Source: Rhodobacter sp. (lineage in GTDB: Bacteria > Pseudomonadota > Alphaproteobacteria > Rhodobacterales > Rhodobacteraceae). Taken from it: DNA of 64,000 bases. A program made the translations under genes and the position numbers. The notes beneath the pieces were generated by a model. The model was not told the DNA's origin and made no database searches. It was given only the letters and a program-made list of their open reading frames with translations. The stretch is taken from the NCBI GenBank assembly GCA_020250445.1, contig JADCEF010000008.1, positions 1 through 64,000 of the forward strand, in the 5' to 3' direction. Positions within the stretch are counted from its first letter, which is position 1; every line of letters begins with the position of its first letter. Positions 3,264 to 32,005 of this stretch are shown here, piece by piece.

Positions 3264-4054
3264 CCGGACCGACGCTTCATCCCGAAGCGTCCGCTGCGGA
3301 AGGGGGTCGCCCCCTTCCGCACATCGTGCCGCTGGTTTCCTTGCGGGGCATTTCGCTGACGTTCGGGTCGCATCAGGCGCTCCGGGGCGTTGATCTGGAT
3401 GTGATGCCGGGCGAATGTCTGGGCCTGATCGGCGACAATGCGGCGGGAAAGTCGACCCTGTCGAAGGTGATGTCGGGCACCTATATCCCGGATGCGGGGA
3501 CGATCAGCGTCGAAGGCGAGCCTGTGCGCTTCCTCGGCCCGTCCGACGCACGGGCGCGGCATATCGAGATGGTGTTCCAGGACCTCAGCCTTTGTGACCA
3601 TGTCGATGTGGTGGGCAACCTCTTTCTGGGGCGCGAACTGACGCGCGGCCCGTTTCTGGATCAGAAGCAGATGCTGACCCGGGGGCGGCAGATGCTGGAC
3701 GCGCTGGAAATCCGCATTCCGCGCCTGACGGCCAAGGTCGAAAAGCTGTCGGGCGGCCAACGCCAGGCCATAGCCATCGCGCGGGCGGCAAGCTTTCAGC
3801 CCAAGGTGCTGATCATGGATGAGCCAACCTCGGCCCTTGCAGTGGCAGAGGTTGAGGCGGTGCTGGCGCTGATCAACCGCGTCAAGGCAAAGGGCGTGGG
3901 CGTGGTCCTGATCACCCACCGCCTGCAGGACCTGTTTCGCGTCTGCGACCGGATAGCCGTGATGTATGAAGGCACGAAAGTTGCCGAACGGATGATCGGC
4001 AAGACCAACCTGCAGGAACTGGTCGATCTGATCGTCGGAAAGGGGTCGCACTGA
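3260..4054 (+). CDS. Sugar ABC transporter ATP-binding protein
   Basis: Walker A GDNAAGKST, signature LSGGQRQ, Walker B VLIMDEPT; ATGA overlap with upstream gene. Confidence 0.95.
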   Translation: MTGPTLHPEASAAEGGRPLPHIVPLVSLRGISLTFGSHQALRGVDLDVMPGECLGLIGDNAAGKSTLSKVMSGTYIPDAGTISVEGEPVRFLGPSDARARHIEMVFQDLSLCDHVDVVGNLFLGRELTRGPFLDQKQMLTRGRQMLDALEIRIPRLTAKVEKLSGGQRQAIAIARAASFQPKVLIMDEPTSALAVAEVEAVLALINRVKAKGVGVVLITHRLQDLFRVCDRIAVMYEGTKVAERMIGKTNLQELVDLIVGKGSH

Positions 4055-22921: not shown

Positions 22922-23527
22922 TCAGACCCAAGGACGCAGGGCGGACGTCCTTTTTTCGTAGGCGTCGATCGAGGCCACCTTTTCAAGCGACAGACCGATG
23001 TCATCGAGGCCGTTCATCAGGCAATGTTTGCGGAACGGGTCGACTTCGAAGGAAAAGGACCGCCCGTCGGACGCCGTGACGGTTTGTGCGCCAAGGTCCA
23101 CCGTCATGCGGGCATTGGCACCTTTCCTGGCGTCTTCCATCAGGGCTTCGACCTGCTGGGCGGGCAGGACGATCGGCAGGATGCCGTTCTTGAAGCAGTT
23201 GTTGTAGAAGATGTCGGCAAAGCTGGTGGAAATCACCGCGCGGATGCCGAAATCCAAAAGCGCCCAGGGCGCATGTTCACGGCTGGACCCGCAGCCGAAA
23301 TTGTCGCCCGCAACCAGGATCTCCGCCTTGCGATAGGCTGGCTGGTTCAGCACGAAATCGGGTATCTCGGCCCCGTCGGGCGTATAGCGCATCTCGTCGA
23401 ACAGGTTCTTGCCAAGGCCGGACCGCTTGATCGTCTTCAGGAACTGCTTGGGGATGATCATGTCGGTGTCGATATTGACCAGCGGCATGGGGGCGGCGAT
23501 GCCGGTCAGGGTGGTGAATGGGGTCAT
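22922..23527 (-). CDS. leuD: 3-isopropylmalate dehydratase small subunit
   Basis: [30 protein letters not shown]. Confidence 0.97.
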
Positions 23528-23536
23528 TTCGTCCTC

Positions 23537-24082
23537 CTACATCGCAATCAATTGTCTGATCGCAGATACTGTGTGGTGAAAACTGTCAGAGCGGTTCCGT
23601 TCCGGGTCAAGGTGCGGCGCAATGATGCTTGCCCCCGAGACTTTTCCATAGCCGGGGCACAGCCTCGAGAGTTCGCGTGAAGGCTGCACTATCTGATCCG
23701 GATCACGGGTACAAAGCCGGGCAGGTATCTTTCGGAACAGGTTTGAAGATTCCAGTGCCGTCTTGTCTCCGATAAACCATGCTTCCAGTTCCTGGCAGAC
23801 AATCCTGACCTTTGACTGCGCCCCCCGGCCGGACGCGTTGATCAGGTCAAAAAGTCTTTTCTTTCGGGCGTGGCAATCGCCATTGTCATTGTCCCTGAGT
23901 ACCAGGAACTTTGCGTTGGGATCCGTCCAACCTTTCAGCTTGCGCTGAAGCGAACGTTCCAGATGACTTACGCCCTGATGTTCGATGATCGTGACCTGAT
24001 CCAGAGACACGCCCATCTTTGGAAGAATAGCCTTCACGACTTCCTTCATCGAGGATTCTTCGGTCAGGATCACCAGCGTCAT
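23537..24082 (-). CDS. DUF4276 family protein (TOPRIM-like)
   Basis: VILTEESSMKE (acidic TOPRIM-like motif), FLVLRDNDNGDC (DxD), CQELEAWFIGD typical of DUF4276. Confidence 0.78.
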   Translation of the reverse strand: MTLVILTEESSMKEVVKAILPKMGVSLDQVTIIEHQGVSHLERSLQRKLKGWTDPNAKFLVLRDNDNGDCHARKKRLFDLINASGRGAQSKVRIVCQELEAWFIGDKTALESSNLFRKIPARLCTRDPDQIVQPSRELSRLCPGYGKVSGASIIAPHLDPERNRSDSFHHTVSAIRQLIAM

Positions 24083-25287
24083 CCGGGGTCAGCGCCCTTG
24101 AACAGGCCTTCGCGCCAAAGCCACCCCGGTTTGTCGCCCACGTCAATCAAGGCCTGCAATTGCGCGTCGTCTGCCGCGCGGTCAATCACCGAAAAGCCGT
24201 CCTTCTTGCTTATCCAATAGATCGATCCCAGCGGCACAGCGTTCAGGAAATCCGGCGAATGCGTGGTGACAAAGACCTGTGCGTTGTTCCGCCGCCTTGC
24301 GGCATAGGCGGCAAACTCTTCGGCAAGGATTGGCAGAAGCGACGGATACAACTGGTTTTCCGGTTCTTCGATGCACAGCAGCGGATGCGGGTCAGGATCG
24401 GCCAGAAGCGCCAGATAGGCGAACATCTTGATCGTTCCATCCGACACGGCCCGCGCGATGAAACCTTTGTCAAAGGCGGCATCTCGGAACCGCAGCAGAA
24501 CACGCCCGTCGCCGGTATCCTCGGGCGCGACCTCGGCAATTCCGGGAATACGTTCCGCCATCTTGCGAAGCAGATCGGCGAAGATTGCCGGATGGTTTTC
24601 GCTCAGGAACTGCGCATAAAGCGCAAGGTTGTCGCCAGTCTCGCTCAGATGCTCGGCAGGTGCGGCATCCGGTTCTATCCGGGCGTCACTGATATGAAAA
24701 TCGCTGACCGACCAGCCTTCGATCAATTCCCGCAGCTGGCTGGCCGCATCGAACCGCTTGAACTGACCAAGCCCTTTGAGGGCAAGGATATCCGGGGAGT
24801 CCAGCGCCTGATGCTCCCGCTTCAGGTCCTCTTCCCGAGTTTGCTCGGTAAACGCATCGAAGCCTTCCGGGATCGCTTCCCCGGCACCGTCCGTGAAGTC
24901 GATGAAGTTGAACGGGCGACCATAACTGCCGCGCTTCCAGCTTAACCGTTCTCTGCGGACAAGGATTTTTCTGTCCTGCTCGGCGATCTGAACCTCATAG
25001 GTCACGAGTCGCTTTTTCTTGGCGGCGAAGTCAAGTTCTACCTTCAGTTCGATCTCGATGCATTCACGCTCACGCCCGCGCGACACAAGCTGTGCAAAGC
25101 CTGCGCGCTTTTGCACTGCCGTGCGCACGTTGTGAATCAGGCTGTCGCGCAAGAAGCCGAATACATCAATGAAGGTGGTTTTTCCGGTTCCATTCGCGCC
25201 GATCAGAACTGCAAAGTTCGGAATCTCCCGCATGTGGACATCCCGCAAGGTCTTGAAGTTCCGCACCCTGACGGAATGGATGCGCAT
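24079..25287 (-). CDS. AAA family ATPase (AAA_21/OLD-SMC-like)
   Basis: VRNFKTLRDV, Walker A GANGTGKTT, SDGTIKMFAYLALL, Walker B LLCIEEPENQLYP, VTTHSPDFLN. Confidence 0.9.
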   Translation of the reverse strand: MRIHSVRVRNFKTLRDVHMREIPNFAVLIGANGTGKTTFIDVFGFLRDSLIHNVRTAVQKRAGFAQLVSRGRERECIEIELKVELDFAAKKKRLVTYEVQIAEQDRKILVRRERLSWKRGSYGRPFNFIDFTDGAGEAIPEGFDAFTEQTREEDLKREHQALDSPDILALKGLGQFKRFDAASQLRELIEGWSVSDFHISDARIEPDAAPAEHLSETGDNLALYAQFLSENHPAIFADLLRKMAERIPGIAEVAPEDTGDGRVLLRFRDAAFDKGFIARAVSDGTIKMFAYLALLADPDPHPLLCIEEPENQLYPSLLPILAEEFAAYAARRRNNAQVFVTTHSPDFLNAVPLGSIYWISKKDGFSVIDRAADDAQLQALIDVGDKPGWLWREGLFKGADPG

Positions 25288-26691
25288 TCACATCATCTCC
25301 CGCACATCCGTCAGCCGCCCCGTCACCGCCGCCGCCGCGGCCATCGCTGGCGACAAAAGGTGCGTGCGCCCGCCGCGGCCCTGACGCCCTTCGAAGTTGC
25401 GGTTGCTCGTGGCGGCGCAGCGTTCGCCGGGCGAAAGCTGATCGGGGTTCATCGCCAGGCACATCGAACAGCCCGCAAGGCGCCATTCAAAGCCCGCATC
25501 GATGAAAATCTGCGCCAGCCCTTCTTCCTCGGCCTGGGCGCGGACAAGACCCGATCCGGGCACGACCATGGCCCGCAGGCCATCCTTGATCTTCTTGCCC
25601 TTCAGGATTGCGGCCGCCGCGCGCAAATCCTCGATCCGCCCGTTGGTGCAGGACCCGATGAAGACCGTGTCGATGGCAATTTCCGCCAGCTTCTGCCCCG
25701 GCTTCAGCCCCATGTATTCCAGGCTGCGCCGCGCCGCTTCTACCTTGCCGCCGGTAAAGCTTTCGGGGTCCGGCACCACGCCGGTGATCGGCAGCACATC
25801 TTCGGGGCTGGTGCCCCAGGTCACGACGGGGGCAATATCCTCGCCCCGCAGCGTCACGACCTTGTCAAACTGCGCACCCTCGTCGGAATACAGCGTCTTC
25901 CACCAGGCAAGCGCGGCTTCCCATTGCGCCCCTTTCGGCGCATGGGGCCGACCCATGACATAGGCGAAGGTCTTTTCATCCGGCGCGATCAGACCGGCGC
26001 GGGCACCACCCTCGATCGCCATGTTGCACACCGTCATCCGCCCTTCCATCGACAGCTCGCGAATGGCCTGGCCGCAATATTCGATCACATGGCCGGTCCC
26101 GCCTGCCGTACCGGTGGCCCCGATCACCGACAGGGTGATGTCCTTGGCCGTGACACCGGGGCGCAGCGAGCCCGTGATCTCGACCTTCATGTTCTTTGAT
26201 TTCTGCTGGATCAGCGTCTGCGTCGCCAGCACATGTTCCACCTCGGATGTGCCGATGCCATGGGCCAGCGCGCCGAAGGCGCCATGCGTGGCCGTATGCG
26301 AATCGCCGCAGACCACGGTCATGCCCGGCAGGGTCCAGCCCTGTTCGGGGCCAACGATATGCACGATGCCCTGACGGATATCCGACACCGGATAGTAATT
26401 GATGCCAAAGTCGCGCGCGTTCCTGTCCAGCGCCTCAACCTGGATGCGGCTTTCCTCATTGTCGATATGGGTGTTGCGCCCGGCGGTTGTGGGCACGTTG
26501 TGGTCAGGCACGGCAATGGTCTTTTCCGGTGCCCGCACACTGCGCCCCGCCATCCGCAGCCCCTCGAAGGCCTGCGGGCTTGTCACCTCATGCACAAGGT
26601 GGCGGTCGATGTACAAAAGGCAGGTGCCGTCATCGGCCTGGTGGACGACATGGGCATCCCAGATTTTATCATAAAGCGTTTTCGGAGACAT
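25288..26691 (-). CDS. leuC: 3-isopropylmalate dehydratase large subunit
   Basis: [61 protein letters not shown]. Confidence 0.98.
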
Positions 26692-31921: not shown

Positions 31922-32005
31922 GGGCGACGAGCTGCAAGGTGCGGCAGCGGACTGTAACTCCGCCGGGGAGACCCATGCCTGGTTCGATTCCAGGGTCGCC
32001 CACCA
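31922..32005 (+). tRNA. tRNA-Tyr (GUA), class II, encoded CCA; atypical D-arm
   Basis: GGGCGAC/GTCGCCC acceptor, GCGGA-CTGTAAC-TCCGC anticodon arm (GTA), variable arm CGGGGAGACCCATG, T-arm CCTGG-TTCGATT-CCAGG, A73, CCA. Confidence 0.8.

Follow-up and report, generated by a model that had tools for sequence, protein, structure and literature searches.

What are the genes for an ABC-type ATPase and a DUF4276 protein doing between the two subunit genes of 3-isopropylmalate dehydratase in a Rhodobacter genome? In the stretch of DNA analyzed here (the window, 64 kb in length), four genes are arranged head to tail on the minus strand in the order leuC, ATPase, DUF4276 and leuD. The upstream border of this slot is leuC, which codes for the large subunit (25288..26691; Aconitase, PF00330, 5.6e-180), and the downstream border is leuD, which codes for the small subunit (22922..23527; Aconitase_C, PF00694, 1.7e-40). 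The intervening genes code for an OLD/AAA_21-type ABC ATPase of 402 aa (24079..25287) and a DUF4276 protein of 181 aa (23537..24082). The ATG of the ATPase gene directly abuts the leuC stop with zero gap (TGA|ATG), and a reading of the last codons of leuC (GGGAGATGATGTGA) reveals a Shine-Dalgarno-like GGAG 9 nt ahead of that ATG. The two inserted genes overlap each other by the four bases ATGA. At the junction with leuD (ATGTAGGAGGACGAA; 23528..23542), the TAG stop of the DUF4276 gene lies within ATGTAGGAGGACGAAATG, so that it overlaps the AGGAGG Shine-Dalgarno of leuD. The sequence-only reading of this locus had described a two-gene insert between leuC and leuD with these very junctions, and its coordinates are exact to the base.

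The insert stands out from its surroundings in base composition, with a GC content of 58.0% for the ATPase gene and 53.5% for the DUF4276 gene versus 64.1% for leuC and 60.1% for leuD. With the 64-kb window taken as the background, its GC is lowest in the two 1-kb bins that cover the insert, which agrees with the earlier impression, gained by eye, of a segment less GC-rich than its flanks. No integrase, transposase or att-like repeat was found within the cassette, and no other defense gene lies beside the pair in the slot. A consensus scan of the region's minus strand recovered nothing resembling a sigma-70 promoter; given that scans of this type cover alphaproteobacterial promoters poorly, this absence carries little weight. 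The genome from which the window derives (G000) has one leuD, a single strong match; hence, LeuD must be produced through or despite the cassette. Elsewhere in the window, ARAGORN called a tRNA-Tyr at 31922-32005, inside a long open frame and possibly false; no RNA family in the window, this call included, reached the Rfam gathering score.

Profile searches place the first protein in the AAA_21 family (5.2e-31), confirming by HMM the ATPase homology proposed from its motifs. These comprise a Walker A (GANGTGKTT), an SDGT motif (residues 282-285), a Walker B (LLCIEEPE) and an H-loop (TTHSP); the Walker A, SDGT, acidic Walker B and H-loop histidine are invariant across 11 aligned ATPases, the first three being those singled out earlier. 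When compared as a profile with solved structures, the ATPase matches OLD (6p74), PtuA and the OLD nuclease of the retron Eco8. The second protein belongs to the DUF4276 family (1.7e-17), and the acidic motif and DxD noted in it at the outset are likewise conserved: in an alignment of 11 sequences that are 28-53% identical to the window protein, E8, D64xD66 and E100 are invariant. E8, D64 and D66 correspond, by motif agreement only, to the catalytic glutamate after the first strand and the DxD of TOPRIM domains, and the arrangement of E8, D64, D66 and E100 is the one expected of a TOPRIM metal site. On this basis, the DUF4276 protein is a presumed TOPRIM-like effector nuclease. No PDB entry matches it by sequence, and its single-sequence AlphaFold model is poor (pLDDT 47), with strands and helices that alternate only through the first half; a fold search with this poor model returned nothing significant, and its top match, lumazine synthase (E ~3e-3), was set aside. 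A search across 5.39 million papers found DUF4276 named nowhere.

The best PADLOC-DB models of both cassette proteins are those of HEC-01 (Hma-embedded candidate 01), which consists of the same adjacent AAA_21/OLD ATPase and DUF4276 genes. The matches are nearly full-length: the ATPase is covered by PDLC04144 over residues 1-401 of 402 (3e-164) and the DUF4276 protein by PDLC04143 over residues 2-179 of 181 (3.3e-47). HEC-01 models are also matched by every member of the ATPase alignment (11/11) and of the DUF4276 alignment (11/11). Judged by these profile matches, the pair is a member of this known candidate defense system. The lettering within PADLOC-DB is inconsistent, with the ATPase models called both HEC-01A and HEC-01B, and the DUF4276 models too. 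The present member differs in its setting, a core biosynthetic operon in place of Hma or a defense island. In the literature that we searched, HEC-01 is mentioned only by name, among other predicted systems in a list, and the search found no defense assay for it; several Hma-embedded candidates, HEC-06 included, have been reported to be antiviral (PMC12988326).

Among characterized systems, PARIS follows the same overall plan, in which an ABC ATPase of the OLD type goes with a separately encoded partner (TOPRIM in PARIS, TOPRIM-like by motif here). In it, the ABC ATPase AriA keeps the TOPRIM tRNase AriB inactive, and sensing of a phage protein releases AriB (PMC12409363). The cassette ATPase also matches the AriA models of PADLOC-DB (7e-32); however, the partner in PARIS is the DUF4435 protein AriB, whereas here it is a DUF4276 protein with no AriB model among its matches, and we accordingly reject membership in PARIS. 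Weaker matches connect the pair with MADS: the ATPase matches mad3 at 9.8e-22 and the DUF4276 protein matches mad4 at 6.6e-06. This assignment was rejected as well: the NCBIfam MAD3 score is 101.6 against a cut-off of 420 bits, and the flanks are leu genes with no other mad genes. OLD, Gabija GajA and the retron Eco8 OLD nuclease contain the same ABC ATPase family, as the profile matches to 6p74 and Eco8 OLD indicate; yet OLD proteins combine ATPase and TOPRIM domain in a single chain, whereas the 402-aa cassette ATPase stops after the ABC head and the TOPRIM-like part is encoded by a separate gene, and we reject OLD or Gabija membership on this feature. The cassette also lacks the GajB of Gabija and the reverse transcriptase of retron Eco8.

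Using a threshold of E <= 1e-30, we found the ATPase in only 4 of the 397 family genomes, each from a different genus, and it is absent from the slot in all six congeners of the window organism. The pair is thus not a housekeeping component; its presence in all relatives would have spoken against the sequence-only reading. Searches of the genera around the other three hosts (G125, G155 and G162) yielded nothing further, as each of these genera is represented by one genome. All four copies in the family are placed between leuC and leuD. In each, the offset of the ATPase ATG from the leuC stop is 0 or -1, the gene that comes next, for DUF4276, overlaps that of the ATPase, and leuD starts 9, 187, 15 or 3 bases past the DUF4276 gene. 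In G125, the ATPase start sits exactly where, in empty sites, the leuD ATG overlaps the leuC stop (gagatgatgtaATG). The slot ATPases form a single clade (support 100/100) versus 13 relatives outside the slot, whereas a LeuC+LeuD tree with 89 genomes shows the hosts to be scattered, with four separate changes that are all forced by well supported branches. Across the four copies, the DUF4276 proteins are 47-53% identical and the ATPases 61-81%; that is, DUF4276 diverges faster. Together with the base composition, this distribution supports a sporadic, foreign-looking insert over a vertically inherited housekeeping unit.

The earlier reading had recommended a comparison of the leuC-leuD interval across related genomes for empty sites and alternative cargo, and relatives present both. 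We read 91 distinct intervals (94 rows with three repeats), of which 37 measure 40 bases or less and the others extend up to 4.9 kb; in 15 empty sites, the leuD ATG overlaps the leuC stop by one base. Two of the six congeners have an empty slot and two have a DUF3800 gene there; of the remaining two, one carries an AAA_16 ATPase and the other an insert that matches no family. At the congener loci concerned (L115, L116, L117 and L120), the AAA_16 ATPase has no PADLOC match and the family-less insert is 675 bp long. Cargo elsewhere includes DUF308 membrane proteins, a methyltransferase, an MFS transporter, HupE and patatin. Most of this other cargo (DUF308, methyltransferase, MFS) is not of a defensive kind, and the slot is therefore not defense-only. 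In a relative of Tateyamaria (L046), a patatin-like phospholipase alone in the slot matches PADLOC "Effector" phospholipase models (2.4e-42).

Two of these other cargoes, which serve as an independent test, recur in the slot as well. The nearest relative of the AAA_16 ATPase of congener G001 (71% identity), in a comparison that took in relatives from 18 family genomes, is also located between leuC and leuD (clade support 99*), and no leu genes were found in the fetched flanks of 15 other loci in the AAA_16 tree. Likewise, the nearest other-genus relative of the DUF3800 proteins (G701) is in the slot (99* support); three further DUF3800 relatives are off-slot, the flank of one of them (G090) having just weak leuC/leuD-like matches of 26-34%. 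The hosts of these slot cargoes are scattered too. Such same-slot recurrence of cassettes in scattered genera makes the slot look like a site of cassette exchange in a core operon. A literature search returned nothing relevant on a known leuC-leuD insertion site, and a family-wide cassette-bearing junction in a core operon, with three unrelated cargoes recurring in the same slot, appears to be new. What this adds to the sequence-only reading is that the interval is variable across the family and that unrelated genera share one cassette at this place. The defense hotspots of P2/P4 prophages and satellites (PMC9122126) are comparable in that a single locus hosts interchangeable cargo in related genomes; unlike them, the leuC-leuD slot is within a core operon, involves takeover of a start codon and has cargo that is only partly defense-like.

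How, then, might cassettes reach this slot? Taken 100 bases at a time, the leuC and leuD genes of the window are 88-99% identical to those of the two nearest congeners all the way to both junctions, which indicates that the insert alone is foreign; a donor-like mosaic tract in either gene was sought against the same two congeners and none was found. As the cassette has neither integrase nor transposase, homology in the flanks offers the simplest route, and recombination between matching stretches of the conserved leuC and leuD genes is the likely means of movement. Gene transfer agents (GTAs) are a possible carrier. The GTA_TIM marker is present in 8/8 genomes tested, which is not a specific test given that GTA genes are common in Rhodobacteraceae. 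The segment from leuC through leuD amounts to 3.77 kb, within the capacity of the RcGTA particle, which carries ~4.4 kb (PMC6209664). The ATPase divergence given above offers no pointer to a recent transfer. In G701 (L155), the leuC 3' end is repeated behind the DUF3800 gene with 28/30 bases matching (2965-2994 and 3959-3988), as against at most 20/30 in 60 shuffles, and on sequence grounds this repeat is probably a recombination scar. The same repeat, along with the placement of the cassette boundary exactly at the leuC stop in four genera, could instead point to a mobile element that is site-specific for the leuC 3' end and inserts cassettes there. Such an element would be hard to reconcile with a cassette devoid of integrase, transposase or att-like repeats, and no leuC-end repeat turned up in any other interval tested; with the repeat confined to one tested interval, we set this explanation aside as improbable.

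A different possibility is that the cassette is ancestral at leuC-leuD in Rhodobacteraceae, was inherited vertically and has been lost or replaced in almost every lineage. Vertical inheritance with very many losses is conceivable, since ATPases and flanks show about equal divergence; in its favor, the site is the same in all four genera and the ATPase identities to the window protein (81/69/69) roughly follow the order of the LeuC identities (89/88/86). However, retention in 4 of 397 genomes would require dozens of independent, precise losses, the six congeners all lack the pair and have other cargo or an empty slot, and the hosts are dispersed over the LeuC+LeuD tree. The ATPase tree also sets G155 outside G125, contrary to the host grouping, albeit weakly (87/88), and in the window the insert has a lower GC than its flanks. 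We regard this scenario as unlikely, while giving it more room than the other alternatives. Less likely still is that the pair acts on its own cell, as a regulator or a toxin-antitoxin-like unit tied to leucine supply, so that it recurs only in the leu operon. Its exclusive association with leuC-leuD in this family and the tight coupling of the genes would fit such a role, but the same slot is occupied by unrelated cargo, and the relatives from other taxa have no leu genes nearby. Several of these are in defense islands: a pair on a Meiothermus plasmid has hsdR to one side of it and hsdS together with DUF4433/macro (DarTG-like) genes to the opposite side, and one on the Synechocystis plasmid pSYSM is near toxin-antitoxin and phosphorothioation-associated genes. 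One chromosomal relative (L150) adjoins an HsdR-like gene, and others stand alone beside ordinary genes, such as a metH-like one in L147, these chromosomal neighbors being named by eye from the sequence. A search of the GenBank phage set for relatives gave one match, at 33%.

The reading that we favor, with a probability of about 0.6, is that a HEC-01-type pair occupies an exchange slot between leuC and leuD, is co-expressed with the leu genes, moves by way of its flanks and acts in a PARIS-like manner. The original proposal is partly supported: the HEC-01 matches of both proteins and the sporadic, foreign-looking insert uphold its defense part, for which the defense settings of the plasmid relatives speak too and which, while not proven, is the best supported account of the pair. 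The cassette has no recognizable promoter, and its ATPase start codon occupies the position of the leuD start in empty sites. Translation of the ATPase would use the Shine-Dalgarno in the last codons of leuC, and the end of the cassette would supply leuD with a new one; by this takeover, expression of the leu operon would always bring the module with it, and LeuD production would continue. With only one leuD, the cassette must let both ribosomes and polymerase pass, and the overlap of Shine-Dalgarno and stop would permit this. We infer that the position in the leu operon provides steady expression from a shared promoter. By analogy with AriA and AriB, the ATPase would assemble, keep the DUF4276 nuclease inactive and sense a phage product; once triggered, the nuclease might cut nucleic acid, be it tRNA or DNA, and abort the infection. 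Cassettes would pass between genera along with the slot through recombination in leuC and leuD, with GTAs as a possible vehicle. More tentatively, at somewhat less than even odds, the leuC-leuD junction in Rhodobacteraceae at large may be an exchange slot in which immunity and other small modules are swapped by flank recombination, perhaps GTA-borne, and borrow leu transcription and the leuD start.

Searches for defense genes usually turn to islands, prophages and plasmids. If promoterless defense cassettes sit in amino-acid operons and are exchanged by ordinary recombination, searches based on islands will miss them, and the junctions of core operons become places to look for defense genes. 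Steady expression of a cassette would then need neither its own promoter nor a mobile element, and a possible, testable job for GTAs would be to spread small modules that have core genes on either side. As for the pair, it is an uncharacterized combination of an ATPase and a TOPRIM-like protein in which the presumed effector diverges faster than the ATPase. One genome (G559; L151, 4589-12612) has a local cluster of such pairs, with three ATPase genes of this kind within ~8 kb, at least two of them with a partner gene behind.
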